Source: Branchiostoma lanceolatum (lineage: Eukaryota; Chordata; Leptocardii; Amphioxiformes; Branchiostomatidae). Taken from it: a stretch of 64,000 bases of DNA. The stretch covers positions 8,534,501-8,598,500 of the forward strand of contig NC_089724.1 of assembly GCF_035083965.1 (NCBI RefSeq), in the 5' to 3' direction. Positions 19,601-45,200 of this stretch are shown here, piece by piece. Each line of letters starts with the position of its first letter. Position 1 is the stretch's first letter. The notes beneath the pieces were generated by a model that did not search any database, was not told where the DNA came from, and saw only the letters and a list, made by a program, of their open reading frames with translations. The translations under genes and the position numbers were made by a program.

Positions 19601-22600
19601 TCTTGAAAGGAAGGTGTACAGTATCAGGGCTCGAAATTCATTTTTGGGAATAGCTGCGTGCACTGGTGTAACCAACCAAAAACAATTTTAGGTGCACAGA
19701 AAGAATTTTGGGTGCACAGCATGAAACAAAGTTGAATGTCAGCAAAATATAATTACAAAGTTAAACGCTACTGCTTCTCTTAAGAACTTCAATCTGTTAT
19801 TCTATTGCTAACTTTGAAATTCCAAACAAGTAATTCATCAAACAAAGTACAACATTGGTTATACTGTATCTATTTTTCTGATACTTAGATTTCAAGAATA
19901 TTCTGTATACTAGACTAAGTGTACAATACTACCTTTACCCTATAGCGTACTAAAATTTCTAGGCACAGTCAAAAATCAGAGGCACAAAGGTGCACATGCA
20001 CCCAGTATTTCAAGCCCTGAGTACCACTGAGAATACTTGTAATAAGTTATAACTGTTCATGAGATCAACAACTGCACATGTGAGCTCATAGTACACAATC
20101 CCCTTCCACTATACTTACCCATTTTCTGTCGTTGTGACCCCATCCTGCCCAGCGACCAGTGCAGCCTGCGAAACGGCATCGTAGTACTTCCTCACGATCT
20201 GTGGGATCTCCCACTGGACTTCGTTGGTGACAGTATGCCAGTAATACACACAGCCGGTACCCTCGTCTAAACACTCCTGCCATTCAAGGGCTTCTCTAGC
20301 CACTAAGGAAAGAAGAACAACAACATCTCAGTTTAACATGTTAACTATGTTTTGCTACGTGTTCTGTAATGTTTTATGAGTGGGTCATGACACCAGCAAT
20401 AGCTGCCTATATCCCACATGTATTGTACCGTTGCAGTTCTAATAAAATAAAATAAAAATCAAGATAGAATGTAATTCATGACTAGTTAACGGTAACTGAA
20501 TTTTACAGTCACTAGTCAACCACTAAAATTTCATCATTGCAAATATTTGAGAGTGATGTTTGTTCCAATTTGTTAAAATCAAATACTGTTAACTACTCTC
20601 TTTTCCCCAACTGCTGTAATTACCAACGGTCCCTCAATATTAAATGGATTTACAGTACTGTAATTCTTGTTTCTTTCACTGTTACAGAAACTTTATGTTC
20701 ACTGTTTTCATGGTCACCTCTGTACCTTGAACTTATCATCACCATGAAAAACCTGTTGATATCATTTATGATTCCTTCACACATCCGTTCTGTAAATCAC
20801 TTGCTGCTACCGTGAAGTTAAAAGTTCAATGAAAATGTCCATTTTCCTTACACTGTGAAATTTTGCTACCATGAAGATAAAACGAATTACTGTACAGTAT
20901 GTCCCCATACTAGCTATAGTAATTAGTATCTTTACAGCTTTCCTGACCACTGCATCCAACAATGGATATACACAATCGTGTTCCTTACATTCTGGGTCTA
21001 CAGAAGGGGCCACTGCCACTGGTTCTGTTGCTGTAGCCTCTACACTAGCTGCTGCTGCTGTTGTTGTTGTTGTTGTTGTTTGCTTCTCTTTTGTTTCATC
21101 TTTTCCATCTTCAACTTCAGTATCATCAGCTTCAGGCACATCTAGGGCATCAATTTCCTAGAAAAGCAAATTTCTAATCATTATGACAATCATCATGAAA
21201 GGAGTTTTACCAATAAGGACTATCCCATTTTTATCACTTTTTAAATCTTTTTTACATCTAATTATACATACATGTACATGTCAAGCTATTTGAATATGGA
21301 GGGATACAAAGAAGAACACAACTCAGCTACATTTTATTTAAATTGTATCAAACTTCAAAGAATCATTTGGGTAGATTATGGCTGTCTTCAGCTTTAATCT
21401 TTTTCTCCGTTCCACTCATTGTTTAGGAGCCCCTGAAACTACAATTGTCATGACCTTCATTATGAAGTTCAGATCTTTTGGATGGATGGGATAAACTGTT
21501 GTCTGTCCCAACAAGCAAATTTCCATCCCAGGACAAAAAAAAGGATCCCAGAGACAGCCCTAGGCCTGGGGTAGATGTTTTTACCTGATAATGACTTAGG
21601 AAAAAAAAATCAAAAATGTTTTTGAAAAATGGGTCTAACTTTGAGGCTGGCAGAGCCGACTTACTGCAAGGAAATCAGCTACTTTGGAATCTATGTCGTC
21701 ACTGCCCTTCACTTTTTTGCTAGCTGCAAGGGGGAGCTTCTTTGGCTGAGTTGTCACAGGGGGAGGAGCTGGAGCTAGAGACAAAAAACATGATTGAATA
21801 AACTATTAGCGAATATGACAATGATTGTGATCTACAATGTAAGTAGAGTTATTGAATTCTAAATGCAATGTTGCTCATATAAAACTGAGCAACATTGATG
21901 CTTTGATATGTTGATGAAGGCTAGACATCCAGGTAATTTGAAGATACGCCAAAAATAGTTACTAGTACTTAGTACTCAACTTTCTAAAGTGACTGGAATT
22001 TCACAATTTTATACAGTTGCTTGAGTAACATTTTAGGAGTATTGATGCCAATTTTGAATGTCAAAAGTGAATACTGTAAATACGAGAAAGATTCTTCACC
22101 GCAAACTTACATGTAAAAACTAAAACCAGTGTTTTCATTAAATACAGTATGATTATACAAATGTAGCACGGCCACAAATACCTACAGCGAAATTACATCA
22201 TTGCAAACTTAAAGGCATTCTATGATTTACAGTACTTTGATTGATGTAAATTTTAGAGATGCCATGAATATCCAAACTATAAAAAATCTATGTCAAAGAA
22301 TCCCCTGTGCAAACTCACCAGCAATTGGTTGTTTTTTCTGCTGAGTTTCCCTGGTGTCTTTCTCCTCGTCCTCCTCATCACTGTCATCATAGTTACCAAT
22401 CAGACCAATCAGGGCATTCGCTTTTGGCGTCACTGATAAAGACAGATCAACATCTTTATTTAAAACTTTATATCAATATTCTATTCTATCCCTTGGGGAT
22501 ATATAAATATATCATACATGTATATTCATATTAATCATAGGAACGCCCTGCAGCAGTGTTCATGGTTGCTTTTAAAAATTGTGTGAATAATAAGATTTCG

Positions 22601-23739
22601 ATAAAGTGATGGAATTCGTGGAATTTATACAGACATGGTTGGAGCATATTTCCAACAGATACGTAAGGCCACACCAAGTAATTTTTATGGATGACATCAG
22701 CGCGCTCGTTAATTTTCGCCTGATTTCGAAATAAAAAACAAGAAATTTCATTGCCCTCCGACGGTGGTCAACATGCCCGAAAAACTGGAAAATAAGTTGT
22801 AAACGTTGTAAGTCTAAGGTGTTTCATTGCATATGAATACCCAGTGTAGTTTCTCCCCATAATGGTATGACATTGGCTGTTTTCTGCGTTTGTTCTAGTT
22901 GATTAAGCTGTATACACATCTTCAAGAACAGTTTAATGTTGACAGTCTAAGGTGTTTCATTGCATATGAATACTCAGTGTAGTTTCTGCCCATGATGGTA
23001 TAATAACAAGCTGTTTTCTGCATTTGTTCTAGCAAGGACATTATATAAATAATGGGGGGGGGTCTAGTTAATTGAGCTGTATTACACAAAGTGTTTCATC
23101 ACATGAATAGCCAGTGTAGTTGCTTCAGATGATGGTACAACAAGCTCTTTTCTATATTTGTTGTAGTTAGTCTATTGCAATGTATACATGGACATGTTCA
23201 TAGAATCAAGGAGGTTTTATATTATATATGAAACCTCATTGGTTGAATACAGGAATAAAAGACCTGTTGGTCATGATATTATATTTCGCTGCCTCAATTC
23301 TTGTTTAACAAGATTTATGATCTCAAAATTTGAAAATATAGGAATCTTGTTTTTTTTGGCTCGCCTTGTTTTTTTTTCGCCCTATCTCATTAATTTTGGG
23401 GTCTGCCAAGGATGTCATCCATAAAATTTACTTGCTGTGGCCTAATTTACATAATTTGGATGGGCGACTCAAATTTTGAGTCAAAACGTGGAGAATGGAA
23501 TCAGTACAAGTCAGTAGCGTTCTTAACACAGCAGAGGAATTTACAGACAGCTTATTTTATTCCCATCACTCATGACATTTCCTCCTACTAGTCCTAGGAA
23601 AAATAAATTCCTTCTTTCACAACAACCAAAAAAAACCCTCACCATTCACGTTGTCTTTTCGTATCGTGGTCTCGATCTGTAACATCGGTCTCCTCCTCCC
23701 TCCAACCGAGGGTACTTGACGCTCCTTTCTTTTTCCCAT
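10610..23739 (-). CDS. FNBP4: formin-binding protein 4, two WW domains, 969 aa
   Basis: WW-domain adaptor that binds proline-rich formins and is found with nuclear RNA-processing complexes. Seventeen exons in transcript order: 23739-23643, 22432-22319, 21774-21665, 21157-20989, 20302-20119, 19496-19390, 18913-18688, 17936-17687, 16878-16734, 16246-16214, 15884-15847, 15251-15147, 14465-14332, 13154-12904, 12540-11915, 11470-11283, 10742-10610. All borders are GT-AG and the total is 2910 nt. The N-terminus (MGKRKERQVP, then RRRPMLQIE) and the DIDSKVADFLAEIDAL block match the family. WW1 spans about residues 169-197 (Trp171, Trp194, Pro197) and WW2 about 562-591 (Trp565, Trp588, Pro591). Residues 655-863 are rich in polyproline. 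The C-terminus keeps IPHLVQKWQKIKQE and NPNFEAVTVDWRERVKRRR. Human FNBP4 is about 1017 aa, so the length fits. It is divergent with RIC8. Confidence 0.96.
10948..11240. repeat. TGAG tetranucleotide microsatellite
   Basis: About 290 bp of imperfect TGAG repeats (GAGTGAGTGAGT), with variants such as CAATGAGTGAG, in the last intron of FNBP4 (between exons at 11283 and 10742). Its antisense frame encodes only Leu-Thr-His-Ser repeats and is not a gene. Confidence 0.95.
11614..11755. mobile_element. SINE 3' part, shared with 60405-60540
   Basis: The sequence from AAAGTCCTCCCGCACC to GGGGGCTAATCCA matches the segment at about 60420-60540 (AAATCCTCCCACACC to GGGGGCTAGTCCA). That segment adjoins a tRNA-like head with RNA polymerase III boxes, so this copy is a 5'-truncated member of the same SINE. 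It lies in FNBP4 intron 15. Confidence 0.55.
12646..12840. repeat. dispersed repeat, CAGGGCTGTCTC family
   Basis: Begins CAGGGCTGTCTCTGAGACCC and contains GGAGGACAGAAATTTTAC. Related sequence lies at about 21440-21565 and 58318-58685, where one border is AGACAGCCCTAG. Non-coding and intronic in FNBP4. It may be a terminal-inverted-repeat element, but the ends are too degraded to fix. Confidence 0.45.
15360..15580. repeat. dispersed repeat shared with 20460-20660
   Basis: CGGTCACTAGTCAACAGC, then AAATTTCATCATCGC, and a run ending AAAGTGATTTTACAGTA match the copy at 20500-20655. Two copies of one interspersed element therefore lie in FNBP4 introns. The second half of the longer copy is the part seen at 9370-9600. 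Confidence 0.55.
16900..17260. repeat. tandem repeat, ~140 bp unit, 2.5 copies
   Basis: Units begin near 16906, 17036 and 17181 with GATGTGGGGTACTCTCAG-like sequence followed by TTATAAC. Each carries a TTAGACATCCAGGTA-like box and ACAATCTTTACAATTGG. The box matches the ends of the small foldback family at 8815-8955. The array lies in FNBP4 intron 8, just upstream of the 16878 exon. Confidence 0.65.
19625..20019. mobile_element. non-coding element with CAGGGCTCGAAAT ends, copy 1
   Basis: Starts CAGGGCTCGAAATTC and ends ATTTCAAGCCCTG, its near complement. It is internally rich in GTGCAC strings. A related element occupies 59806-60123, and a partial start lies at 17268. CAGGG termini are common in hAT-type elements, but I see no clean target duplication here. 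Intronic in FNBP4, no reading frame. Confidence 0.6.
20460..20895. repeat. dispersed repeat in FNBP4 intron 4
   Basis: A long interspersed copy. Its first half matches 15360-15580 and its second half matches 9370-9600 (both contain ATTCCTTCACACATC). It ends about 95 bp before the FNBP4 exon that closes at 20989. Confidence 0.6.
22805..23175. repeat. tandem triplication, ~130 bp unit
   Basis: Three diverged direct copies in FNBP4 intron 1, each with GTGTTTCATTGCATATGAAT-like sequence, CAGTGTAGTTTCT and TTTTCTGCGTTTGTTCTAG-like sequence, starting near 22818, 22959 and 23090. No coding content. Confidence 0.65.
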
Positions 23740-24262
23740 TCTCGTGCCTCGCCTTCTTATAACCACTAAAATTACCAAGAAAATCTAACAAAAGATCAGA
23801 AAAATTTCATCTCATGGAAGCCATTTTGTTTCCCAATGCATTTTGGGAAAGTTCTAAAAGAACCTACCTGATTGGTTGCCTTCTGACTAGGTCTATCTTA
23901 TGAACCAATCACGTTATACATAACAAAATCTAGATCTCAATCGAAAATGGCCAGATTTAGGGGGGAGTCACTAACTTTTCTAAAGGGTTTTGCGTTCAAT
24001 TCATTTCATCATATTAGTCTTATAAATTGATTATTATTGATTTTTTGTTATGCTAACATTGCCCGTACCAATATCTATCCCAAAATGTCTCTTATTTTGT
24101 TCTAAATGATGATTTATAAAACAAAACACATTCTAGAGGGATAGCCAATGGTTTGTCCAGGAAATTATGTTCGTGTGTGAAGCACTGTAATAAGATTGAG
24201 GCCATGAATATCTGATAGTTGTGTCGCAAGAAAATCGGACCAAAAATCTACTTAACACAAAA
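23740..24262. promoter_or_regulatory. shared bidirectional promoter of FNBP4 and RIC8
   Basis: Only 523 bp separate the two divergent start codons. The interval holds two opposed CCAAT boxes 30 bp apart (ATTGG at 23871-23875 and CCAAT at 23905-23909), which suits NF-Y. It also has a palindromic CCCAATGCATTTTGGG at about 23833-23848, whose complement contains TCCCAAAATGC, similar to the ZNF143/THAP11 motif. Two ATGGCC/GCCATT strings could be YY1-type sites. There is no TATA box. Head-to-head spacing below 1 kb is typical of co-regulated housekeeping pairs. Transcription starts cannot be placed from sequence alone. Confidence 0.6.
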
Positions 24263-27200
24263 ATGGAGGGAGTGGACTCAGTGGTGGGAGTGTTGAAGCG
24301 GGGAGACCAGGCGGAGATCTGTCAGCATCTCCAGTCATTCAACACACAGGTGAGGGGAGGGGGGCAGCTGGTGAGGGGAGGGGGGCGGCGGCAGTGTTTG
24401 GAAGGCGTGTCTTTGTTTGTTGTGTGTTTTTATGAAGGTAGGGCGTGTGAAGCAGTTGTATTTTCTTTCCAGCATGAAGATGTATAATAAAAGGTATAAG
24501 TCCGGTAGGACTGCAGGACGCGTCTACATTTATAATGGTATGCATGTTTACTTTGGAGAAGATTATCAATATCAGTGACAGTGACATTTTTGATTGACAG
24601 CTAAATGTACATTTCACTGTGTTTCTTCCAGCATGCAAAGACGTTTGGTTTCCCAGATCTACAGCAGGACAAGAGGAAGGTCAGTGCCTGTTTAGCTTAC
24701 ATCACACATTAACAATTTGTATCGGATCCATATTTGTTGCTATGTATATCATATGCACATTGTACTAAAAGTAAAACGGCTGAAGATATTATCACAATAC
24801 AAGTAACAAGGTGATGAAATGAAAAATTAACTGCTGTTGTTTGTAGTAAATTGTAACGTTACAGTCAGACTGGGTATCAGCTCTATAATTTAGGAGGTTC
24901 ACGATTAGTAAGTACGCATGCACAGTGAAATGCTGTTTTGTGAGTAATTGTCAAAGGTGAAGGCCCTTAACTTGTAAACATTTCATGTCTCAACCATTGT
25001 CTTCATTATCATAATTACCTCTGTGAAAAAAGAAGCCGTCTAAAATGTTTGGACGCCGTCTAAGAGCGTTTTGGTGCGTCGGAGCCCGTCCCAGGCCGTC
25101 TGTCCTGTCAGAAACGGCGGCGGACACGTCGCGCGCGTTCAGGCCGTCCTGCCCGTCTGTTAGTTGGACGCCGGGGCGGCCTTCCTGGACGCTGGAAACG
25201 TCAGAAACAGCGTCGGACGGGGCTATAAAATAATTATTCACCCGACGCTTCCGCCTGTCGTCATTTCTAACGTGTGAAAAGCACGTTTTCGGCTTCTGCA
25301 CATGCGCAAATTTGAGCGGTAGTTTCGATTTGACCGTTAACTGTTGCAGACCATTTGTTCAGTCAGTGCTCGTTTTGCTGTATTTTTTGGCCCATTTCTT
25401 GGATTTCGCGCACTTTTGGAGGATGCAATTTACTTCTAAAAGCAGCTGTATCTTTCTACAACATCCGGGGTTTGGTTTTATTCCGGTGACTGAGTTTATA
25501 TTGCCAAAGAAGACGTCGATTGTGAGAAGAATCATGATAAGAACATTATTTGCCGTGGCGGGCCCGCCGCTGCGATCTTGGTTCGAACAAGGAGGTGGTT
25601 CGAAAGTCAACAAACTTCCGTCGGCAGAAAAAAGGGATATCACCAAAGAAGCTGAGTTTTATCAAGCTGGCTGAGTTTATATTAGTGGAGACTGGTAAGT
25701 GAACAAGCATTTCATGTTGATGTTTCGTTACAATGATACAAAGGCAGATCATTTCCGACGAGGTCTCACGGTGCCCTCCCCACTTACAAAAGAAATGATA
25801 AAATAGGATGTTGCAATTAAATACCACGGGAAAAAAAGGCACATAAGAATTGTAGAATACCTGTTTACAATATCTGTTGTTTTAATAAACGATGAAGATG
25901 CTGTGAAAATGTATATCTAGACAACAGAAAATGATTTCAACCCACCAACACGCGGCACGTCTGACAGAATCTTACCGCCCTTCCGACTCCGATTACGGGG
26001 TAGCAATTATCAAACTGAGGATCTTGTTTGGACCCCACAAAATACAAATAACATAACGATACTGTAGAATACATATTTAGAATATCTCCTGTCTTATTTT
26101 TAGACTCATTGTGCACATTCATGAGACAATAGAGAAGATCAAAAAATTTTTTAAGAATTTGCACCCACCCTTGATGACTTGTGCGCGCCCGTCCATGTCA
26201 ATCAAACTTTCAGCCGGCGCACGCAGTCAAACTTCAAAGGCCGGATTGAATTTCACAAAGCTGCGCCGCTGTGTTAAGCAATGTTTTTTAACCGCGGAGC
26301 AATGTTATAAGAAATTCGTTTAATTTAGCTTCCAGTCTGACAGCTCGGAATGTGGTCTAATCTGCCTATGTCATTAATCACGCCGTCAGCGGTCCTGCGC
26401 AGGCGTACTTCTCTTGACCCCAAGATTTGACCCCAAAATCCAAGATGGCGGACGGACTGTGGGTGTTACGCGCCGATTTGAGGCACAAGACATGGTCACG
26501 TAAAAACTCAATAGATCTCGCACGAAAGGCCAAATCATGCATATAAATGTGTCCCTGTAATGTCAAGAAGCTATCTAAGCTCCTGCGATACACTTGGAGA
26601 TCCAAATATAATTTTCGAACGAGATTTGCACACTCAAAGTTGGCCCCAAATGAGCCTTCTTGTGTTAAATTCTGTCGTAGATTTCGCACTGCATGGGGGT
26701 TTCCGTGCTACCGTTTCAGCATTATCAGGCGTAATTTACTTCCGGGTCGTAGCAGAAGGGCTTGCGGCCGAACACGGAAGTGTGGTCAATCTTCACGTTC
26801 TATCCAAAGATATGTTAGAATACTTTTCTTATTTTAGAATTTGTCATGCAGTGCAAATTAACAAATGTAACCGGCTCCTTACTGGGCGCCCAGTACGGAA
26901 CAGACGACACCTACCGGGCATACGTCACCTAAAGTGCCTGTGCTCGCTGCGGTAAGCTTGTACGTATATGCTCAGAAGCAGTTGAGACATAGGGGGCTGA
27001 GTTCCGGGAAAAGTTGGAGAAGCCCAAAGAAGACGGTGGCTTCGGCACTCTGGAGGCAACCTTCATGAAAGCAGACCCAATTCTAAAATGAAAGAATTTT
27101 CCGATTGACGTCCGTGCCTATATGGGTGTACACACGCCCTTGAGAAAGCAAGGTTGAAATTGGGTCTATGGAATGACCCAATTCTAAAATGAAACTTTTC

Positions 27201-30200
27201 CGTCCTACGTCCGTGCCTATATGGGTGTACACACGCCCTTGAAAAAGCAAGGTTGAAATTGGGTCTATGGAATGACCCTATTCTAAAATGAAAACTTTTA
27301 CGTTTGACGCCCGTGCCTATATGGGTGTACACACGACCTTGAGAAGCCAAGGTTGACATTGGGTCAATGGAATGACCCAATTCTAAAATGAAAACTTTTC
27401 CATTTGACGCCCGTGCCTATATGGGTGTACACACGCCCTTGAGAATGCAAGGTTGAAATTGGGTCAATGGAATGACCCAATTCTAAAATCAAAACTTTTC
27501 CGTCCTACATGTACGTCCGTGCCTATATGAGTGTACGCACGCCCTTGAGAAGGCAAGGTTGACATTGGGTCAATGGAATGACCCAATTCAAAAAAAGGAA
27601 AACTTTTCCGTTTGAGTCCGTGACTATATGGGTGTACACACGCCCTCGAGAGGGCAAGGTTGAAATTGGGTCAATGGAATGACCCAATTCTAAAATGAAA
27701 ACATTCCGTTTGACGTCCGTACCTATATGGTTGTACACACTACATTGAGAAGCCAAAGTTGAAATTAGGGCCATGGAATGAAACAATTCAAAAATCAAAG
27801 ACTTTTCTGTCCTACGCCGTGCTTATGTTGGTGTACACACGCCCTTGAGAAGCCAAGTTTGAAATTGGGTCAATGGAATGACCCAATTCTAAAATGAAGT
27901 ACTTCTCCATTTGACGTCCGTGTCTATATGGGTGTACACACGCCCTTGACAAGCCAAGGTTGAAATTGGGTCAATGGAATGACCCAATTCTAAAATAAAA
28001 ACTTTTCCGATTGACGTCCGTGCCTATATGAGTGTACACACGCCCTTGAGAAGACAAGGTTGAAATTGGGTCAATGGCTTCTCAAGGGCGTGTGTACAAA
28101 TTGGGTCAATGGAATGACCCAATTCTATAATAAAAACTTTTCCGTTCGACGTCCGTGCCTATATGGGTGTACACACGGCCTTGAAAAGGCAAGGTTGACA
28201 TTTGGTCAATGGAATGACCCAATATTCTATAATGAAAACTTTTGCCGTTCGACGTCCGTGCCTATATGAGTGTACACACGCCCTTAAAAAGGCAAGGTTG
28301 AAATTGGGTCAATGGAATGACCCAAAATTCTATAATGAAAACTTTTCCTTCCTACGTCCGTGCCTATGTTGGTGTACACACGCCCTTGAGAGGGCCAGGT
28401 TGAAATTGGGTCAATGGAATGACCCAATTCTATAATCAAAGACTTTTCTGTCCTACGCCGTGCCTATGTTGGTGTACACACGCCCTTGAGAAGCCAAGGT
28501 TGACATTGGGTCAATGGAATGACCCATTCTACAATCAAAAACTTTTCTGTCCTACGCCGTGCCTACGTTGGTGTACACACGCCCTTGAGAAGGCAAGGTT
28601 GAAGTTGAGTCAATGGAATGACCCAACTCTAAAACTTAAACGTTTCCGTCCTACGTCCGTGCCTATATGAGTGTACACACGCCCTTGAGAAGGCAAGGTT
28701 GACATTGGGTCAATGGAATGACCCAATTCTAAAATGAAAACTTTCCGTCCTACGTCCGTACCTATATGGGTGTACACACGGCCTTGAAAAGGCAAGGTTG
28801 ACATTTGGTCAATGGAATGACCCGATTCTATAATGAAAACTTTTCCGTCCTACGCCCGTGCCTATATTGGTGTACACACGCTCTTGAGAAGCCAAGGTTG
28901 AAATTGGGTCAATGGAATGACCCAATTCTAAAATGAAAACATTCCGTTTGACGTCTGTGCCTATATGGGTGTATACACGACATTGAGAAGCCAAAGTTGA
29001 AATTGGGTCTATGGAATGAACCAATTCTAAAATGAAAACTTTTCCATTTAACGTCCGTGTCTATATGGGTGTACACACGCCCTTCAGAAGGCAAGGTTGA
29101 AAATGGGTCTATGATATGGAATGACCCAATTCTAAAATGAAAACTTTTCCGTTTGACGTCCGTACCTATATAGGTGTACACACGGCCTTGAGAAGCCAAG
29201 GTTGACATTGGGTCAATGGAATGACCCAATTCTAAAATGAAAACTTTTCCGATTGACGTCCGTACCTATATGGGTGTACACACGCCCTTGAAAACGCAAG
29301 GTTGAAATTGGGTCAATGGAATGAACCAATTCCAAAATGAAGTACTTTTAAGTTTGGGTGTATACACGACATTGAGAAGCCAAAGTTGAAATTGGGTCTA
29401 TGGAATGAACCAATTCCAAAATGAAGTACTTTTAAGTTTGACGTCCGTGCCTATATGGGTGTACACACGGCCTTCAGAAGCCAAGGTTGATATTAGGTCA
29501 ATGGAATGATCCAATTCTAAAATTAAAACTTTTCCGTCCTACATCCGTGCCTATATGGGTGTACACACGCCCTTGAGAAGGCAAGGTTGAAAATGGGTCT
29601 ATGGAATGACCCAATTCTGAAATGAAGTACTTTTAAGTTTGACGTCCGTGCCTATATGGGTGTACACACGCCCTTGAGAAGGCAAGGTTGACATTGGGTC
29701 AATGGAATGACCCAATTCTATAAACAAAGACTTTTCCGTTTGACGTCTGTACCTATATGGGTGTACACACGCCCTTGAGAAGCCAAGGTTGACATTGGGT
29801 CCATGGAATGACCCAATTCTTAAATAAAAGACTTTCCGTTTGACGTCCGTGCTTATATTGGTGTACACACGCCCTTGAGAAGGCAAGGTTGAAATTGGGT
29901 CAATGGAATGACCCAATTCTAAAATGAAAACTTTTCCGTCCTACGCCCGTGCCTGTAGGGGTATGAACACGCCCTTTAGAATGCACGGTTGAAATTGGAC
30001 CAGTGTATATGAACAATCCCTGTAGAGTGCAAAGTTGAAACCGCTTCAAAGGATCGCAACAGTTCGGACATAAAAGAATTGTCCGTCCTAAGTGGGTGTA
30101 TAACCAACGAGGCATATGATAAAAAAAGTCAATCTTCCCCCATGACCTCTATAAATTACACAAAAGCCACTAAGAGTGCAAAAAACATTCCGTCCTTATA

Positions 30201-33200
30201 GTGTACGACCGTAAGTTCCTAACAATGAAAACTCACACGTATGGAATAGAACTTACAAACTTTTCCAAACAAGAGTTTCCCGTCTTAAGTTAGCGGATAG
30301 AACCCGCTTAATAATGCAATTCTAAACGTTCTTAAGGAACGCTCTTAGCTATGATTTTCAGGGTATAAGAGCTGAAAACAGTGTAAACTAGAAAGTGTAT
30401 TAGGACATTATATACAATGTCCTCGTTCTATTGACGCAATTTAACCTTGCCATCTTAAACCCCCGTCACAAATCAAGAATTAAGCTCGGCCAACATGTCG
30501 GCGAGCTCCAAAAGGGTATTTTCGGCCGAAGGACGGTCGACGTTCTGTCGATTACGCGGGCTTCGGTCGATTTTTAGAAATCAAATTGATCCAAATATGC
30601 TCGGGCGATTTTGAAATTCGGCGAGCTTTCGGCGATCTACGAATTCGGCCGACGCTCGCATTGACGCCGGCTTAAGGGCGTGTGTACACCCATATAGGCA
30701 CGGGCGTCAAAGTAAAAGTTTTCATTTAGAATTGGGTCATTCTATTGACCCAATTTCAACCACGCCTTCTCAAGAGGGTGTGTACACCCATATAGGCACG
30801 GACGTCAAACGGAAAAGGTATCATTTTAGAATTGGGTCATTTCATTGACCTAATTTAAACCTTGGCTTCTCAAGGGCATGTGTACACCTATATAGGTACG
30901 GGCGTCAAACGGAAAAGTTTTCAATTTAGAATTGGGTCATTTCATTGACCCAATGCCAACCACGCCTTCTCAAGGGCGTGTGTAACGTTACACCCATGTA
31001 GGCACGGACGTTGGACGGAAAGTGTTCCTTTTAGAATTGGGTCATTTCATTGACCCGATTTTCAACCTTGCTTTGTCAAGGGCGTGTATAACCCATATAG
31101 GCACGGACGTCAAACAGAATAGTTTTCATTTTAGAATTGGGTCATTCCATTGACCCAATTTCAACCTTGCTTTCTCAAGGGCGTGTGTACACCCATATAG
31201 GCACGGACGTAGGACGGAAAAGTTTCATTTTAGAATTGGGTCATTCCATTGACCCAATGTCAACCTCGCCTTCTCAAGGGCGTGTGTAACGTTATACCCA
31301 TGTAGACATGGACGTAGGACGGAAAGTTTTCTTTTTAGAATTGGGTCATTTCATTGACCCAATTTTCAACCTTGCATTCTCAAGGGCGTGTGTACACCTA
31401 TATAGGCACGAGCGTCAAACGTAAAGTTTTCATTTTAGAATTGGGTCATTCCATCGACCCAATTTTAACCTTGCTTTCTCAAGGTCGTGTGTACAACAAT
31501 GCAGGCACGGACGTAGGGCGGAAAGTTTTCTTTTTAGAATTTCCATGGACCCAATTTCAACCTTGCTTTCTCAAGGTCGTGTGTACAACAATGTAGGCAC
31601 GGAGGTAGGACGGAATGTTTTCATTTTAGAATTGGGTCATTCCATTGACCCAATTTTCAACCTTGCTTTCTCAAGGTCGTGTGTAAAACAATGTAGGCAC
31701 GGAAGTAGGACGGAAAGTTTTCCTTTTAGAATCGGGTCATTCCATTGACCCAATTTTCAACCTTGCTTTGTCAAGGGCGTATATTACCCATATAGGCACG
31801 GACGTCAAACAGAATAGTTTTCATTTTAGAATTGGGTCATTCCATTGACCCAATTTCAACCTTGCTTTCTCAAGGGCGTGTGTACACCCATATAGGCACG
31901 GACGTAGGACGGAAAAGTTTCCTTTTAGAATTGGGTCATTTCATTGACCCGATTTTCAACCTTCATTCTCAAGGGCGCGTGTACACCCATATAGGCACAG
32001 GTGTCAAACGTTAAGTTTTCATTTTAGAATTGGGTCATTCCATCGACCCAATTTCAATCTTGCTTTCTCAAGGTCGTGTGTACAACAATGTAGGCACGGA
32101 CGTAGGACGGAAAGTTTTCCTTTTAGAATTGGGTCATTCCATTGACCCAATTTCAACCTTGCCTTCTAAAGGGCGTGTGTACACCCATATAGATACAGAC
32201 GTGAAACGGAAAAGTATTTTAAGTATGTTATAGAACACTTACGAAGTTTTGCTAAAGAACAGTATCAAACCTGTCTTAAGTTGGCGGGTATAACCCGTTT
32301 GATAATGCAATCTTAACGTTGTCAACGGAACGGTTTTAAGTTATAATTCGGAGGGTATAAAAGCCAAAAGTTTTAACAGTATAACTAGAAAGTGTGCCAG
32401 AACATTATATACAATGCCATCGTTACTTTAAAACGTGTACTGGGCCGCCTCCTTGCGCGCTTCCCGCCCGAACACAGTCAACTGTCATCAGAATCAACAC
32501 GAAACATTTCTTTTGCTTTGTCTTGCCAGTATTCTGCGTCACGCTGAGTGTGACCCGGAAACAGTGGAGTGTCGCCCTCAAACCACATGCCGCGAAACCC
32601 CCATATGGTGCGTTCTTGGTCCGGAGTGTAATACTTAAACCATAGGGAAAACCTTGGAAAATGGGTCATCTTTAACTCGAGCAATCTTGCTTCTTGGAGA
32701 AGTTTAGATACCCCGCTTTATTGCAGGGGCTTGAGGAACGTCTTGACATTACGAGGACACATTTATATGCATGATTTGGCCTTTTGTTCGAGGACTATTG
32801 AGTTTTTACGTGACCATGTCTTGTGCCTCAAATCGGCGCGTAACATGGAACGCCGATCTGAGTGCTATGCTTCCTATATCAAGTCCTACGGAAGCCACGA
32901 TATGTCAATCTGAGCTATTATACATGTATGTGCCCCCGTTATTTTGAAAACTCGGACAACCGCGGGTAAGCCAGTTGAGAAGTCAAAAAGTAGTTAAAAA
33001 CTAGATTTGTCCCGTCAAAGTTGACCCACTTGGCGAACTTAGTATGAGAACGCTACGGTCCCCCGGCTTACTTACCTGTCTCGCAAATATCTTCTGCCAG
33101 GTTACCGACGGGACGTATGATTTCTGATTTGTTGACGTGAAGTGGAACGTTTCCAGTTCTTACAAGTGTCATAACTACGATAGAGATTAGAGATGTTTTC

Positions 33201-36200
33201 GACAGTTTTTCACGTGCGTACGGGCTGCCTCGCGTTGGGCCACGCTACATTTATGGTACTTGTACGTTGTCAGTTACGAAGCTGAAATAATTTGTTTGGA
33301 TGTCGCAAAATTACAACCAAAAAAAACTAATAATTCAGCCTTTTACGGACCAATTTGTTTGTTTAATTGGTTTACGATATTTAGAGGGGCACTTATATAA
33401 GCCGACTTGTCGGACTATCTACACAATACACGACCACGCACACTTTGATTTAAATACCACTCGTAAACACATATTGTTGTATACAGCTTCACTCGCATAT
33501 CTCACAAGACAAGACAACTAAAAGACCTCCAGGTGGAAGGGGCCGTGGAAGGGGTCGTGATAATCTATAGAAAGACATGTGACATCACAGCAGGTTAGGT
33601 GCATCAGAGGAGAATATCTTTATATACATGAACATATTGGCACCTGTCTCAAAGGAGAATATCTTTATATACATGAACATATTGGCACCTGTCTCAAAGG
33701 AGAATATCTTTATATACATGAACATATTGGTACCTGTCTCAAAGGAGAATATCTTTATATACATGAACATATTGGCACCTGTCTCAAAGGAAAATATCTT
33801 TGTACACAATGTAACATGAACGAAGTGTTAACTGTATCAAACTTCAAAGTAGAATATCTTTATACAGTGTGTACATTAATATGGTGTTACCTGTCTCAAA
33901 GGAAAATATCATTATATACCAGTACATTAACATGGCGTTACATGTCTCAAACTTCGTCAAAGGCAAATATCTTCATGTACATGAACATAGCATTACCTGC
34001 ACCAAGTCTTACAAGTCTCTTGAAGTAGGTTGTTCACCTAACTGTTTATAACATGAAGTTACTTTTTGCAAATATACATATATATCAATCAACTTGCTTG
34101 TTGTGTTGTGTTGTCACAATGTTCAGCTGTATACTGCCATGACTATATTTACATCAAAGACAGCATGTTTCCACAAAATACAAGATTAGAAGTGAAACAT
34201 CAAAGTTGACAAACATTGTCTAACTTGACTGAACTTGTGAAGAAAGTGTACCACAGACACCGATGAAATGTACAGAACATACCATATCAATTCATTTCTA
34301 CATGTCTATATGACAATAATAGTTGACAAAACCGCTTACTTATTTATGTACTACCAACACATGTTGTGATAGCCTGACAAAAAACATGACAGATAGAAAT
34401 ATATGTCAAAAATTGCATGCTTTAACAAAGCACATGAGTATTACACCTTAAAATCACAACTCAGTCTGACCTGCATCACTTAAGACATCTAGCTGTAAAG
34501 CACACTGGATATTGTTTTGGTCAATGGCTTCATTTTGAACTTCAAAGTACAGTTCCAACAAGTCCTCTTTCTTGTCAACATAGTACATCTTCACATCCTC
34601 TACTACAAACTGTACAAACATCTCTTTTATCTTCTCGACAATATCAGCTTATTCCAAATATGTTAGAAAACCCCTCACTAAATGACGAACACGAATACTC
34701 TCTATCTCCAACAGCATGTCCACACAGGCGACACTTTGTTCTCAGCAGCCCTATGTGGTCATCCTCCAGTTCTTCATCTACAAATACAGTAGACTCCAGC
34801 TATTTGCATTACTGATAATAGCATATTTCGGGGATATGCATAAAATTATGAAAACCCAAACCATTTCCCATTCACTCCATTATAAATAAAATGGCATAAT
34901 TGCATTAGCCATTTTCGCATACTCCTGCTATTTGCATAAAATAATGCCAATGGTAACAGGTAAAACTGGTTGAACATGTCAAAGTCACTAACTCTTATGG
35001 ATCTTATGCAAATGTCATTCAGATGTAAATCGAGTATGGATAGTTTCTATGGTTAGACAACACCATAGGAACTGTTATTGTCCTTTGTGTTTTGAAAAAG
35101 CTGTAGCTACTCCATTGTCATTTGCTGTGATAGGATTCAAAAGAATATAATTGCCAATTTTTCGCTAAGTTTGCCATTCTTTGCACTCAACATGTGTAAA
35201 TAAACTGATGATATGCTTATGAATTCAATATGATACATGTTGTATAACCTGGGAGTGAGTGAATTTGACAGAAAGTGTGTCTGTTTCCTTCAAGTGCCAT
35301 CCTAGTAACCACTACAACCCCCTCCCCTCTCAGTGCCACTCATTTTGTCCCCTAGGGTTAATTGACTACTCCTTATAATTGCATAAAATACACTGGCAAA
35401 TCAGTTATGCAAATAAGCGGATTCTACTGTACAATGAAATAGGCAAAATAAATAAAAATCAACAATGTACCAGTATTATTACAACAATCAATCAATTATT
35501 AACAAAAATATCTATAATTCAAGCATTTTTTTGATCCAGGACTAACAAAACAGTAGTTTACTATCCATAAAAATTGGATGTAATCTATATAAAATATCAT
35601 GAAATCCGGAAAATTAATCTGATTTCTTTTTTTATTATTGTCACAAAGTTTATAAATATTCAAGACAATCACCTCGGCGTAAAAACGTGGAACTACGGCG
35701 CTCTCATAATACGGGAAGCTATTTCCTATGGACATCAGCGATTTTGCGCCCCCCTCCCCAACCCCGCTAAAACAGTTAATATCGTAACATCGCCCACTTC
35801 AAAATCATCAACAATTCTTCCACATAAATACTAACGGCTGAAACCCATGTAGAAAGATAGCAGAGGGTCTATACTATTCAGGAAAATTATTCATTTTTCT
35901 TAAAAACATAGCGTATTGCAACTAGACAGACATTTCTCCGATAGAACCGGTGCTCTATCGACCCAACCGCCATAGAAAAACATACGGAGCAGGCGACTCG
36001 AGGCACGAAACCTTCGAAATTCAAAAACATGAACAATTTTTGCAAGACAAACAACCAGAAAACAAAATGGCGCCAGCGATAGCTGACCACGTCAACAATG
36101 ACAGAAAATTGCTTTGGATAACCTAAAGTTCCCTAAAAATGTGCAGTTAGACCAGCAAAATTACCAAGAAAATGTGCAATGGGAAGTCTTACCTGATGTT

Positions 36201-39200
36201 TCGCCCGCCATTGCCGCCAGGAAAGAGCGATTTCGGAGAGATTTGTGCGACGAAAAAAGCACTTGCAGACTTGTCCCTTTGTTCTGGAGGCTTCTGTTAG
36301 GCTCAAAGACCTTGTTTGACCTCTGAACTGGGCAATACCAATGAATAAATAGGGGAGATAGAAGGGAAAAGTCTAGAAATCGACTGCACCAGGCTCTGGC
36401 GGTAAAATTACGTCATAGCCGAGCGGACGATCTGATTGGCTGGCTATTGGCGTCATGGACATAGGCAGATTAGACCACATTCCGAGCTGTCTGAGGCCAT
36501 GGCGGCCGTGGGTGGTCTGCTACGCCAGTCTGGCTGCATACTTTGTAAGTTTGTTGCCCCAAGCGGCCATAAAAATCAAAACCATGTCCGGACGCCGTCA
36601 GAAACCGCGTCTCAAAACGGAGCAAGCATGCGCACAGCAGCCCGGATTAGCACCGGAAAATTGACGCCGTTTGCGTCCGTCCCTGGGGGGCCCACGCGGA
36701 TGCGGTCCAGGACGTCTGGGACGTTTTCTACGACGTCAACGACGCCGTCAAACGAGCCAATCTAGACGCGTCCGTGTCAGAAGCGCCGTTTGCGCCCGTC
36801 CCTGGCGTCGTTCGGCGCCCGTCCCTAGCGTCCCCCGGCGGCGCCTGGAACCCGGCGGGGAGCCCGCGCGGACGCCGTCCAAGACGTCTGGGACGTTTTC
36901 TACGGCGTCAACGACGCCGGCAAATGAGCCAATCTAGACGCGTCCGGCGTTTTTCAGGCCGTTCAGACCGTCCAAGACGTGTCATCAAGGGATTTACAAC
37001 CCGTCCAAGTCGGTCTGCAGTCATAATTCAGGACGCATCGAATTTCAGTGGACGCCCGTCACAGACGGCGTTCGGCCGTTTGGGACGGTTTCATTTTCAC
37101 AGAGGTAACAATGTGTATTGTTTATGTCTCAGCGGCCTTCCCCATTGACATATTTAACACACAGTGCATTTCGCTGCACATGCATATACTTAAAATCTTG
37201 AACCTCCTTTAATATACAATGTATAATGTATGGCATATACTAGTAGTATCCAATTATTGATTGGTTTGGCTGTTCAGCACACACAGCCATGGCTGTCCAA
37301 CTAGCCTGTGGCTATTACAAAAAGATGACCATATGTTACACACTGTTTACTGTGCAGCTGCAGTTCAAATACTTCAGATTTTAAAATTTCAGGATCTTGT
37401 ATCGGCAATCCTCGAGGTACTAAACAAGGACATGCAGCCATCGTGCTATGCCACCTGTCTGTCAACCATTCGCATCCTGAGCCGAGACAAGGCCTCCCTG
37501 CAGTTCCTGGCCAAACCACCGTGTGTCACCACACTCCTGAAGCATGCCGGGATGGACGGAGCAGAGGCTGTCCTGGAGCTGCCAGAAGATGAAGGTAAAT
37601 CAATGTTTATAGAATATAGCGTTGTAACATCTACTAATATAATTCCAACAGGGTACATATTTCTGCCACCCCGAAAAGATAAGTCCAAACAGATCTCCAA
37701 GCCATTTACATCCCCCAGTATAATTATATGATGCACTCATGTGTGTTTAAACTGTGCATACCTGGGAGATGCTGCACTAGAGATCTCTCAAACCCACTAT
37801 TTTTCAAAGTGGCAGATTTCTGTAAGTTGTATCCCAGCAGATTAATGAAGGACACTTATCGTATTGGTATAAAGCCTCTATCTCACTGAACCTGCGGCAC
37901 GTTTGGCCACCTCGCTACAACTAGGCAATTTGACAGAGCTCTCAATGAATTTCATGGATAAAATACTTTTAGCCTAAATATCTTTTTAGGCTAGGGTGTT
38001 TTGTTGTCTTTTTAAGTCATACTTCAATGCTTGTACGTTTTACATGATATTCCCAATATAAATTCAAGGGTAACACAAATCCAATTTAGGACGCAGTGAG
38101 GCTGCCAACGTGCCGCAGGTCCAGTAAGATAGGGGCTTAAGCACTTGTTATGTAAACCAATGCATTTTGGTACAACACCCTGGGTGTAAACATTCAAGTC
38201 GTTGGCTGTCTTTGGTATCCACTTATTCTGTCATGCTATGCAGTGATTTTGACAGTATTTTTCTTTATTTTCCACAGTGATGGCAGAGGCAGAGAAGTGC
38301 CTGTGTAACATCATCTTCACAAGTCCTACTGCACAGAGACTCTGCAGGTCCGGTCATAGTTCAGAGTTAAGATATACTCATTGAAAGTATTAAAAAACAG
38401 AAGGAAAATACATACCAACAGTTGAACAGGAAGAAAGCAGTACTAGTATTCACACTGAGCACCAACCTAGAATTTGCCGTAGTACTTTTCTCAGGCATTT
38501 CTATCATTATGTTTTGTTTATACTGTTGACTGTCTGTCATTTAATCATCTATGTTAAAGATGAAGGAATGATAATTTGTGCCCCAGATGATGACTTGTTT
38601 GAATGTTGACTTGTGCAGCTCTAATGGCTGTGTGGAGGGTGTGGCTGGTAGGTTGAAGTGCATCTCAGACCCCCATCTGTCCTATGATGTCAAGGTAAGA
38701 CTGTGATCCTTTCATTTATAGATGTGTATCCAGTCAACCCTAGAATTGTTCTCAGTTGTGTACAGCTATATTTTTTCCATATAGACAGATATTGTTGTGT
38801 CATTTTTACTTCAGGTCATCAAGTGTTAATTATGACATTTCAGAAGTACTTCAAAGGGCCCTCTGGCAGTTAGAAATAAACATTTAATTCACTAACCATC
38901 TTTTCTCTTTATGCAGCTTTTTGCTGTAAGGCTGACATTCCTTCTGACAGCTTTGTGCATCGACATCAGGTGGATATTGAATCTAATTTTGGGCTACATG
39001 TTTCAAGTTCTGTTTCATCTTTTTGAATTTTTACATCTTATCTAGAATTACAACAAAAATAACTTAACATCTCCTTAAACATTTTTTTGAAACAAAGTAA
39101 TACATGAAGATGTCATTTTACACATTGAGATCATTGCAGGTACAAAGGTACATGGCATATGTAATCTCCAAGCAGATCTATCGGTGGCACGGCAGTATGA

Positions 39201-42200
39201 AAAGGGCCAACCAGTATCCAAAGCCACCGGAGATCTGCCATCATTGAAACACGGAGGAGCATTTCTTTTCAAAAATGGTGTTATAGCCCCTACTCATTGC
39301 CTTATAAAACTCCGATGGCTTTGGGTACTCGTTAGCCCTTATGCCTTGCCACCGATATATCAGATTCTGCTTGGAGAGTAGTACTCAAAAGGATTTATTG
39401 TTTTCTTCTGTCAGACAAAGACTTCAGGTTGAGTTCAACGTCCCAGCACTACTGCTGTCAGCCATGGAACACACTCTGGGTGTGGAGAACAACAGCACTC
39501 TGGGTATGTTTGGATGATTTCATTGGGGTAATGTGGCGTAACGGCAAGAGTGTTCAGCTCAGAACCCAGCGGTCCCAGGTTCGAATCCTGTCATGTCACT
39601 GATCTTCTCTTGGGAAAAGCACTTAACACCACCTTACTTACTTCACTCAGGTGAAAATGAGTACCGAGTTTTAGTTCAGGGCTCCAGACTAACTTTTAGG
39701 CCTAGGAGCACTGTGCTCCTAACTCAAAAAAGTTAGGAGCACCAGCAAAAATCTAGGGGCACCACTACAAAAAGTTGGAAGAACAAGCAAAAGTCTTGGC
39801 TATACCAAATAATACTCCTATTAATCAATGTTATACGTTAACAACCGGGAATAAAGTATTTGAATAGATCATAAAAGATAAAAACCTACATTGATGGTGC
39901 AGAACAATTGGCAATTCAATTCATTCAATACCTTCCTACATACTGATACTTGGAACAAGGCAGGTAATGATTCACATAACCTTGAATGATAAATAAATAG
40001 ATGACTCTAGAACTTATCTATTGGGTTCATGACCAAAACAAATAAAGTCATATTATCACATAGGTAGATGGCGTAGACCAATCAGAAGCCTCCATTGCCC
40101 ACAATAAGTGGTCTGTTATCACGCCATAACACACCACTTATTGACGTCATGTCAGAACACAACCGTTCCGTTTTGTAGAGGGGGTATCTTTTTGATGAAT
40201 CTTTTTCTTAACCTTGTTTAAAAAATCTTTATAACCGTTGCATTTTGTATAGGGGGTATCTATTTGATGAATCTTTTTCTTAACCTAGTTTAAAAAATCT
40301 TTATTGTCTTAGAATTCCTAAAAATTTCCTTAGATTACATGAAAAAGGGAAAACAAATTTAAAATTTCCAAAAATGTTCCGCGTGTTCCATTTGTTGTTG
40401 GCCAAAGAAACCATGTTCTATCTAAGGTTCCGCGCGTTCCATTTCCTGCTGGCCAAAGAACCTGTGTTCTAATCAGGTTACCTGAGGTCATGTTGCAGGG
40501 AGATTCTTCAATGATAACATTTTCTGACTGACCTGAAACCGACCCTCCTATCCTGTGTGGTTGAAATAAATAAATCAGGCAACAGTTGTACATATTCTTC
40601 ATCATCTTCTGTTAAAAAAGGACAAATGTGAATTCTGAAATGCATTCTTAATAGTATAAGGGATCTATGCGTCCAACAGAAATTGTCTACTCTGATATGC
40701 GTCAGTTTGGATAAGCTATATGATAATAACGTTAATGACCCGCCTCTTCCTCGGTGTATATGGTGTCATAACGCCTGGCCATGTGCTATAACCACCTCAT
40801 AAAACCACCTCGTTCGCTTCGCTCACTTGGTGGTTTTATTCGGTGGTTATAGCACATGGCCAGGCGTTATGACACCATATACACCTTGGGGCGGGTCATT
40901 AACCCTTAATTCCATAATTTGAAACTTCACTGCTGGCATCAAGTTCAACATTTTTACTGGCATTTCTTTTCTTTTTACCCTCACCCTCTGTCTACAGATA
41001 ATCCAAAATACTTTAATATCCTTACAATTCTTGCTCAAAATAGTATCAAAAATGATCTGTTTGTGCCGACCCAGTCAAATCGGGAACTTCGAAACGCGTA
41101 GTTCAAATTTCGCGCGTCAGGACCGCGCGGCGCCGTCATCCAATGACAGGCAGACCGCATGGGGAAAGCTTTGTGATTCGCCGCTGTGCAGTATAGACAG
41201 CAGCAGAATGAAAGTACATGCAGCACCATAACAACGGGCAGGTAATGAGCTTTGAAATGATACCGGTGACAAAAGGAAAATTTGATATTTTTTTAAATAA
41301 AACTCCACATGAATTGATTCATCAATTTTTGATCGTAAAAATCATCGCTTGAACAGGTATAAATATGACCGCAGGAAACAAGCCTTTCATTCTGCTGCGG
41401 TCTATTTTTTATAAACATCATGGCCGCCATTGAAAACAGCGAGCGTCCCGGCGAGCGCTCACTTTCATCGACAAAGTTTTGGCGTTTGAAACATTTTACA
41501 AAACAAATACACCACAAAGGAGAGAGACTTATATCCTTTATTTCTATGGGTAACTTTGCCACTAGGAACGGATAGTTTTTGTACCGCGGGTGTGGGAACA
41601 TGATAGAAAATGCACCGACAATATTCGCGGTAGCATTGGAATACCTATATTTTCGGCTTACCGCTTAGTTCTGCAGCCATTATCCTGGCGCAGGTCTTAA
41701 TTTTGGATTGTCGCACCGTGCGACCGTGATTTTAAATCTAGTCGCATTCTCAAGAAACTGGTCGCATACATATTGTGTGCGAGTCGCACTCACGAGCGCT
41801 GTTAGTTAGAGGTGTCTTCGGATAGGACGTTAAATGGAGGTCCCGTGTTCGAGGAGAGCCACACCTCGAGCACGTTGAAGAATCCGCCACACTTATTGAA
41901 AAGAGTACTAGCACGGGTTCTTCCTGGTGGATCAAATCATAATGATTCCGGTCTAAAATGGGGTAGGGAAGTTCCCATGATCATAACCCCTGCTTCGCCT
42001 ATTGAGTCAGTTACTTAGTTAGACAAGCTTGCCTAAGGTTGATGTTTCTAACTTAGGGAGAAGAGACGCTGCTTCAGTGAGCGTTAGTTCAGTGCCCAGA
42101 CGTGGTCCATGTGGCCTTGCACTGAGCAAACTTGTTAGCAAAAAAATGACATAGGTGTACTGTATGTACATAGTATAACATGTACATGTTTATAACTGTT

Positions 42201-45200
42201 GGTTTATCTTTGCAACTGTTATATGTATTTGTCATCAGTGCATGCCATCTACATGTTTGTAAATTGCCATTACTAATTATGATATCATTCGTTTTTAAAG
42301 TTGATTAATTTTTGTCTCTGCTGTTACAGGTACTCTAGAAGGTGTGGTCCTGACTGATGAACAGGTGGACCTTCTGTCGGAGATCCTCAAGACGATGTTC
42401 AATGTCACACTCACTGGACAAGGCAGGCAGCTAGACGAGGTTAGTGGTCATTGTTTTTTCATTGTCTACTGTCACAGTTGTGAATGTGCAGATTTGTAAC
42501 TTTGAATGCTGTTTTTTAAAATATTATTTTTTGTAATAAATATTCTTTAATTTTGGGAAGGTACCACCTCCCAAATTTTGTAAAACTTGAAAATTAATAG
42601 CTTTGTCTTCTCAAAACATAATTTTCATGTCTTTGTAAATGACAGTCTTCTTACATTTCCAAGTTGAATTGTGGTTTCCTGCTCATGCTGTCATTCCATG
42701 TATTGTCACTAGGAGGAGCTGGAGCGGTACAAACAGATGACTGCTGTGTGCAGATACATGCTGATGTGTCGGGCATCGAGTGAAGCAAAACAAGAGGAGC
42801 TGCATAAGTAAGGAACTGAGTACTTTTCAGCTTTTAAGCTTTTACCTCAGATTTCTTAGGCACTGGAATGAAACAGATGTTTTGAAATAATCTTCGGTGA
42901 GCTAAGAAGAAAGTATACTCCATGTTTTTTTTTAATAATTGGATGTTTAAATAGTACATATGCTCCATACAAAAGATACCAAAGCAACTGGATATGTTTT
43001 GTAAACAGTTAGATTTTTAAAACAGCATCTGCTGTCTTTTGTCAGAAACTTCAAAAGGCAGTGGATGCTGACCAGACTTGGGAAGACAGCGAGTGTTGTC
43101 TGTAATGTCTGACTGTTCACAAAACTTATCCAGTTACTGCTGCTTATTAATAAGTAACTTTTGTATTGAGTATCTCATTACCTAGACTTTTAGCTCTTTA
43201 CATGTAGTTTGGAGTGTTGTGTGGTCCTAGCTAGGGGTGGATACTGGTACTGTGTACCGTTACAAAACTGGTATTTCTTGCTGGACAGGGAAAAAAAAAT
43301 CAGTGGACCAGTTTTTGGACCGATCAGGAAATACCACCAGCAGGCAGTCACATTTGATCATAATTTGTAGGACTTACAGTTACAGAGACCTGTACTTGTG
43401 TCTCGTTCTCCAAAATATGATATAGTACTGCTGCACCAGACCTGAACCTGAATTTTCTGTACCGGTATCCACCCCTAGTCCCAGCCCTATACTACCACTA
43501 CCCCATGGGATTTTAGTGACAGGCACACATATCTGACATGACTTCCCTCGACAGCCACACCATCAACCTGCTGACCAACATGCCCAGGAGCTGTCTGAGC
43601 GAGGTGATCGTCCGACAGGGTGAGCGCGGTGTGGGGACAGAGTACGACGGCTGGAACATGGATGCCATCATGACCATTCTGGACTTCTTAGAGAGAAGAA
43701 TAGACCAGGTAGGACTTTGATACTGTAGAATCCACCCTGTATAAGGGTGGATACCGGTTCGCCTGACCTGATTCTGACCTGTATACATGTAACATCCAAG
43801 AACAGAGTCCCCAAAACCTGAAAGTCCAAAACCAGAGTAAAAAAAATGTCAGTCTTAATTCTCTATGCTTGATATTGGTTTCATAAAAACCAAATATCAT
43901 TGTCAACTAGACAGGATCAGGTCCAGGTTCTATAGCCTCTAGACCTAAACCTGGACTTGGACCTTAGTAAGTGGAACCAGTATCCATCCCTAACACTGTA
44001 TCTATCTATCTAGACTAAGTGGCTAGTTTTTAGAGGGAGAAAACACAGAAAAGTTGGTGCATGGGGATTTTGCTGAAATTCTTGCTTGATAGAGGTTAGG
44101 TATCCCGTTGTTTGTGTGCAGGAGGTTATGCCATAATTGATTTTACTTTGAAAATTTAAAGCTTGATTGTTTTCCAGAACAAACGTCTGTTGGAGACCCT
44201 GTCCCCTGTCCTGGCCTGTCTGATCGCCATCTCCAGAGCCGATCGCAACATCAGGAAGTTCCTCAGAACTAAGGTGAGGGGATCATTAACCTTCTCCCTG
44301 CTGCCTAACTCAGAAACCAGTGCAGAATGGGGTGCCAAATGGCTACTTCAGTATGTTATTGTTAACCTCTTATGTACATGTACATCATGTCATGTAGTCT
44401 ACATCATTTGAATATACAATGTCCTTGTTTGATATATTGCATGAGCTCATTCTAGTTATGCATTATCCGTTATGAAAATGTGAAATAAGTATTGTAAAAC
44501 CTGTACAAGTGACCATCTCTGTATCAGGACCACCTGACCAATGTGACCACTTTTGGTGGTCCCAAGACAATTTTTCCCATTGACAAAGGCAGGAAGTATC
44601 CTGTCTGTAAGTGATCACCTGTCTACATAGGCCAGATTTAATCACAGTTTCCTTAGTGGTCTTCTTACGCAGGTACAACAGTAGTTTTGCCTACAGTATT
44701 TATTCCATTCGTAATATTGCTTTATGTTTTATTGTGTAGGTTTTACCCCCATTGAGAGATGTGGAGACATTACCGCAGGAGGGGCCCAAGTTACGCAACA
44801 AGTGAGCAAACTTTCATTCTTTTTGTTGCATTTCATCAGGTATTTTAGGGCTTAATCTAAACAGGGGAACAAGGGCGCTGCACCCCCATGCCCTGACCAT
44901 GTTGCCCCCCTTAATTATTGAATGAATGAATGAAAGACCTTTATTGTACATTTATGCTTAAACAAGCTAAGTACAGGTCATGGTGATAAGCAAAGGACTA
45001 CATACAGTGGTGATAATATAACGAAATATAATGAGATATCTTACTGTGTCTAATAGGACTAATCTATACTTGTCTACTGTTTACAGGTTCGACTTCTTCT
45101 CGCTTCATAAGGCAATTGTAGATGTATGTAGATATGGAACTCGTAATACATGGTTTGTTCAGTTTCATTATAAATAGGAATTTTTCAGTGCTGTTTATAT

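Follow-up and report, generated by a model that had tools for sequence, protein, structure and literature searches.

A nest of transposon-like elements as the favoured account of a 12-kb repeat block in a RIC8 intron of Branchiostoma lanceolatum

One intron of the lancelet Branchiostoma lanceolatum is filled almost entirely by a 12-kb block of repeats in near-mirror order, which raises the question whether the block arrived as one mobile unit or was built up in steps. The window analysed here is a stretch of 64,000 nucleotides (assembly GCF_035083965.1, contig NC_089724.1, forward strand, positions 8,534,501 to 8,598,500), and all coordinates below refer to it. An original prediction, made from the letters alone, read the block as a single composite foldback element occupying intron 2 of RIC8. 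The location was confirmed: the joined exon pieces from both sides of the block matched Ric8A in the PDB (best E 9.7e-26) and the Pfam family Ric8 (E 1.8e-19), and the block (25018-37105) covers 12,088 bp or 95% of the intron. With regard to the number of elements, nesting now looks likelier than one foldback, and the reading we favour, a nest of non-autonomous DNA-transposon-like elements filling the intron, is given an even chance of being right.

24680..37392, plus strand: RIC8 intron, the second coding intron and host of the block, 12,713 bp, GT..AG edges read

The block is bordered by the following features.

25015..25061, plus strand: outer left inverted terminus (TTACCTCTGTGAAAA...), 37 of 47 columns identical to the right terminus
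37063..37108, minus strand: outer right inverted terminus (...TTTTCACAGAGGTAA), from inverted alignment and shuffle test
25018..25235, unstranded: left CGTC-rich, CpG-rich subterminal segment, 14 CGTC/GACG (shuffle maximum 9), CpG observed/expected (o/e) 1.37
36583..37105, unstranded: right CGTC-rich, CpG-rich subterminal segment, 36 CGTC/GACG (shuffle maximum 21), CpG o/e 1.43

The inverted termini that had been predicted were recovered, as were subtermini rich in CGTC (CCGTC in the prediction). The terminal repeat runs inward from TTACC/GGTAA with a local score of 42, which was reached by none of 1000 dinucleotide shuffles (maximum 32), and the 14-mer TACCTCTGTGAAAA was found at the two outer termini only within the window. 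The left and right ends have 42 8-mers in common (shuffle maximum 19), and the right subterminal segment holds a 90-bp direct duplication (36685-36774 and 36857-36946). A two-state composition model placed the left edge of the block at 25030, 12 bp from the terminus, and the right edge at 37105, at a distance of 0 bp; as its starting guess was taken from the block coordinates, the telling part is the fit of the outer edges only. The model also labelled 25786-25936, 26004-26156 and 33392-35667 inside the block as background and marked many shorter CpG-rich stretches elsewhere.

These composition edges and shared end motifs bear out the part of the prediction that saw in the block foreign, repeat-bearing and transposon-like DNA. 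They also argue for the possibility, which we hold to be real but doubtful, that one 12.1-kb non-autonomous composite, foldback-like or Pack-TIR-like (TIR, terminal inverted repeat), was moved whole and inserted at a TA. Such a composite would consist of short outer termini, CGTC-rich subterminal repeats as putative transposase-binding sites, internal inverted modules, satellites and captured host DNA. A CpG o/e of 0.80-1.43, shared by every listed part apart from 33392-35667, would fit a common recent arrival. Precedents exist in modular foldbacks with internal tandem arrays (Tetris, PMC4079207) and in the capture of host DNA by animal TIR elements (PMC8277862). In its narrower form, a single TA-flanked 12-kb non-autonomous unit combining CpG-dense CGTC subterminal arrays, opposed satellites and a captured host gene fragment, the claim appears unlikely. 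The TA expected next to the termini is present, but it reads the same on both strands and forms part of the inverted match, and therefore says nothing on a target duplication.

Within these borders, three pairs of repeats and two satellite arrays were found.

26341..26372, plus strand: pair A, left arm, candidate 32-bp TIR of an inner element, perfect inverted match to 36458-36489
36458..36489, minus strand: pair A, right arm, perfect inverted match to 26341-26372
26464..26590, plus strand: pair B, left arm, 127 bp, 89% inverted to 32719-32845
32719..32845, minus strand: pair B, right arm, 127 bp, 89% inverted to 26464-26590
30239..30427, plus strand: pair C, first copy, 75% direct to 32223-32424
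32223..32424, plus strand: pair C, second copy, 75% direct to 30239-30427
27074..29998, plus strand: satellite array 1, unit of about 100 bp, from tandem-repeat detection and monomer rows
30674..32215, minus strand: satellite array 2, opposed, unit of about 100 bp, from tandem-repeat detection, monomer rows and inverted alignment

The predicted mirror order holds in so far as pairs A and B are inverted, the arrays are opposed and all are nested in order; it is incomplete, pair C being direct. The claim of two opposed arrays stands in full, their best inverted alignment covering 1507 columns at 87%. Arrays 1 and 2 gave 31 and 17 monomer rows; the comparison was limited to the 28 and 15 that had 85 or more aligned positions, and five shorter ones were dropped. 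Mean monomer identity was 0.877 and 0.864 inside the arrays and 0.863 between them, and the nearest neighbour lay in the own array for 35 of 43 monomers (mean 23.1 and maximum 35 in 2000 permutations). Both arrays probably have a common origin and were later partly homogenised separately. Opposed arrays are difficult to assemble, and a misjoin of inverted arrays or a merging of haplotypes could have produced the whole arrangement. This is very improbable here, with arrays that diverged separately and borders that bear matching inverted termini.

Mirror order, the chief argument for one foldback, does not decide the matter, because it also follows necessarily when one inverted-repeat element inserts into another. 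A decayed long inverted arm should leave similar spacings on both sides and residual similarity between the pairs. Left and right spacings were 1323/616 bp from the outer termini to A, 91/3612 bp from A to B and 483/470 bp from B to the arrays. Two of the three are very unequal, and the third, the sole spacing that favours a foldback, encloses DNA that is not similar. Compared over their full length, the mirror segments gave scores of 16 (outer-A), 10 (A-B) and 14 (B-array), values reached by 27, 198 and 72 of 200 shuffles. In ten looser comparisons, all six inverted ones fell within the shuffle range, as did two of the four direct ones; the other two were weakly above it (25781-25886 with 33271-33367, AT-rich, score 23 against a shuffle maximum of 22; left with right subterminus, score 22, 3 of 200 shuffles as high).

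The edges of each inverted pair were searched for target duplications, defined as non-palindromic direct repeats of 3-10 bp at most 6 bp from each edge. None was present at the outer pair or at pair B. Pair A, which as an extended match spans 26336-26372 and 36458-36494 (37 bp at 97%, 34 bp perfect), is bordered by the direct repeat TCTGA.

26336..26340, plus strand: candidate 5-bp target duplication TCTGA, left copy, null P 0.011, three pairs tested
36490..36494, plus strand: candidate 5-bp target duplication TCTGA, right copy, null P 0.011, three pairs tested

The null was based on 20,000 draws and corresponds to about 3% over the three pairs. As a check, this definition was extended to 43 inverted pairs in the window with at least 20 perfect bases (pairs in the satellite region excluded, many of the remainder in microsatellites), and a duplication of at least 5 bp was found at pair A and at 50483-50874 only. 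The single foldback of the prediction is thus opposed by the two unequal spacings, the lack of inverted similarity above shuffles between the pairs and the candidate duplication of pair A's own; a single composite of any kind also has to account for outer ends with no informative duplication and for a mirror broken by pair C. Nesting looks likelier than a single foldback.

From the repeats and their orientation, the composition edges and the TCTGA repeat, all directly observed, we infer an order of insertion and a mode of movement as follows. An older outer element of about 1.94 kb, whose inverted termini are short and whose subterminal repeats are dense and CGTC-rich, would have inserted into the RIC8 intron; its two parts are proposed from the termini, composition edges and spacings.

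25018..26340, unstranded: left part of the proposed outer element, 1323 bp
36490..37105, unstranded: right part of the proposed outer element, 616 bp

A satellite-bearing element of about 10.15 kb (26341-36489) with 32-bp perfect inverted ends would then have entered the outer element at TCTGA. This inner element carries pair B, and its opposed arrays would have grown by local tandem amplification; a small pogo-like element would have inserted into its CpG-poor stretch, which contains a coding remnant. All members of the nest would have been moved in trans, because the searches, which covered 12 peptides by Pfam and two frames and the remnant against a protein collection, turned up no transposase. 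The perfect 34 bp of pair A, against 37 of 47 matching columns in the outer pair, would be expected of the younger pair and so fit nesting.

Several points weigh against such a nest. The TCTGA repeat is short, with the chance level of about 3% given above, and it is near-palindromic and extends the inverted match with one mismatch, so that pair A may be an inverted repeat with no target duplication. The CpG content does not set the outer apart from the inner parts, and pair B lies at nearly the same distance from the arrays on the left and on the right, which a true foldback would also show. Since the ends of one element may differ from birth, their identity is a poor guide to age. Finally, the outer and inner elements are each known from a single copy.

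The CpG-poor stretch was characterised separately and comprises the following.

33392..35667, unstranded: CpG-poor segment inside the CpG-rich block, CpG o/e 0.35, TpG 1.51, CpA 1.39
33604..33817, plus strand: 45-bp minisatellite, 4.7 copies, from tandem-repeat detection
34454..34786, minus strand: coding remnant with a CRLCG motif, broken by a frame shift, from its frames and one relative (P0001, E 3.5e-19)
34787..35429, unstranded: small pogo/Tigger-like insertion of about 640 bp, inverted ends aligned (CAGTAGA...), palindromic TA on both sides

The flanks have a CpG o/e of 0.46 (20000-25017) and 0.41 (37106-41000). The high CpG content of the outer and inner parts within a CpG-poor gene suggests a recent arrival or a lack of methylation. 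The dinucleotides of segment 33392-35667 are like those of long-methylated DNA, and in invertebrates with mosaic methylation, methylation of gene bodies is usual (PMC11292947). A nested insertion of the segment as such was considered and rejected, its borders showing no convincing inverted or direct repeat.

A composition so unlike that of its neighbours would also fit a patchwork made up of intron sequence and independently placed repeats, in which recombination instead of transposition kept or copied the outer match as well as pairs A and B. The arms share short stretches only and the whole window is repeat-rich, in agreement with such an origin. We consider it improbable in view of three inverted pairs that enclose the opposed arrays in nested order and of outer composition edges that coincide with inverted termini.

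The relative P0001 was the sole match to the coding remnant among five candidates and is encoded on a contig of 1031 bp. The alignment has 54 identities in 67 columns, with 12 columns as a gap in the block copy and one mismatch, and at least this piece is therefore present elsewhere. The upper frame of the remnant continues to 34799, inside the insertion, whose assignment to the pogo/Tigger family is our assumption. We also took the CRLCG motif to be reminiscent of the N-terminal region of RAG1 and of ZAD domains, a link that was dropped as Pfam, PDB and NCBIfam searches gave it no support. Up to E 10 the PDB search returned 12 rows; the lowest E (0.00042) belonged to a designed pentatricopeptide protein, each single repeat of which was far from significant. 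The remnant may stem from a captured host gene or from part of another element.

The prediction that the block has no transposase holds as far as the 12 block peptides that were searched, nine in one set, where a tenth was a RIC8 frame, and three in another, of which two overlap peptides of the first; none reached the Pfam cut-off, and 116 frames of at least 45 amino acids are listed in the intron. A non-autonomous copy need not have a DDE/D transposase, and none was seen in these peptides. For the frames 32717-32478 (minus strand) and 25423-25674 (plus strand), no candidate relative was found among about 5.8 billion proteins. The longest frame was within the shuffle range in four of the five non-satellite segments of the block; the exception is 33392-35667, whose longest frame is that of the minisatellite and whose second longest runs antisense to the coding remnant. 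An autonomous element was rejected on these results. Rfam gave no match, nor did the rest of the window match any block part at E 1e-4. Exact patterns of the satellite, pair B and pair A were unmatched in IMG/VR viral contigs, those of the satellite and pair A in GTDB contigs, and 25015-29015 in phage records; as these collections are not meant to hold animals, the negatives are no evidence of absence.

Among the open-licence papers listed in the literature searches, none was found to describe the exact layout of the block. The closest in build is Tetris, a foldback of Drosophila virilis, which is likewise non-autonomous and modular, with tandem repeats in opposed arms, a variable middle part and no apparent coding capacity (PMC4079207). 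Tetris has TIRs of up to 1,735 bp and target duplications of 8-10 bp, whereas the block has termini of about 47 bp, a 5-bp candidate duplication (pair A) or an uninformative TA (outer edges), and dissimilar segments between the pairs. Of the foldback (FB/Tetris) traits, opposed tandem arrays in the arms are present; in place of long near-continuous arms there are separate inverted patches only, and in place of an 8-10 bp duplication no non-palindromic repeat at the outer edges and 5 bp at pair A. Pack-TIR elements of animals enclose non-transposon DNA, as the block encloses a CpG-poor, coding-like stretch, but the transposon consensuses of that study are short (median 374 bp) next to 12 kb (PMC8277862). 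A captured fragment would have a parent gene, and for the remnant one relative, P0001, but no parent gene was found. Tc1/mariner-type elements have a 2-bp TA duplication and TIRs under 100 bp (PMC8277862); the outer element has TIRs of about 47 bp and TA on both sides, though palindromic and inside the inverted match.

As in the block, CACTA elements carry several hundred bp of dense direct and inverted subterminal repeats, and some copies are reported with satellite arrays and gene fragments (PMC8978399). The outer termini of the block read CCTCT or TTACC, not CACTA, and there is no 3-bp direct repeat at its outer edges. Rehavkus resembles the block in a minisatellite within the element near the TIR, but has 9-bp duplications and a transposase (PMC6446971), neither of which was found here; the outer, A and B edges show no duplication of the 8-11 bp of MULE/Rehavkus elements. 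ProtoRAG of lancelets makes a 5-bp target duplication, the length of the candidate TCTGA (null P 0.011), and has TIRs starting with CACTATG, against CAGCTCG in pair A (PMC8289069); CACTATG is absent from the block, and the inner element has no ProtoRAG/Transib-like TIR with a CAC start. Satellite-bearing MITEs, treated in a review (PMC12628747), have one or two features in common with the block. The available parts of PMC5802833 and PMC9179366 contain nothing that bears on its layout.

Captured promoters or first exons were considered as well and dropped: promoter-motif counts were too small to decide, and splice-like sites on the plus strand were not denser in the block (71 acceptor-like and 4 donor-like in 12,088 bp) than outside it (184 and 38 in 24,600 bp; 245 and 25 in 26,601 bp). 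Two cases of an ATG together with a donor-like site, at 36211 (minus strand) and at 36499 (plus strand, seen by eye and absent from the script's list), were suggestive but not used, nor was an apparent splice pattern at a pair A junction, which failed the acceptor rule set for the analysis.

A copy of a dispersed repeat of about 200 bp (37623-37825) directly follows the RIC8 exon downstream of the block; the two others lie at 1437-1664, inverted relative to the rest, and 6812-7028. The inverted-repeat element at 50483-50874 measures 392 bp, with 87-bp perfect ends and the 8-bp direct repeat ATGTTGTC on both sides, and is presumably hAT-like from the length of this duplication. Other repeats in the window are a near-palindrome of 380 bp at 57531-57910 (self-complementary at 85%), short palindromes at 40731-40903 (85%) and 2929-3167 (75%), and dispersed direct repeats at 9371-9611 and 20656-20903 (84%) and at 44911-45236 and 61015-61324 (71%). 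A CpG-rich patch of 1.05 kb at 41055-42106 (CpG o/e 1.16), CpG-poor on both sides, is perhaps another recent insertion.

RIC8 would tolerate the nest because it leaves with the spliced-out intron; in the RNA before splicing, the opposed arrays could pair as a hairpin of about 1.5 kb. Should the block be a single 12-kb unit after all, it would be a means by which satellite DNA, along with a preformed RNA hairpin, spreads into the introns of genes. As a nest, the block would be a concrete case of a transposon carrying satellite DNA into a gene, with nesting that mimics a giant foldback. Copies of the inner 10-kb element, if it can move on its own, would tell whether opposed arrays travel with the element or grow after insertion.

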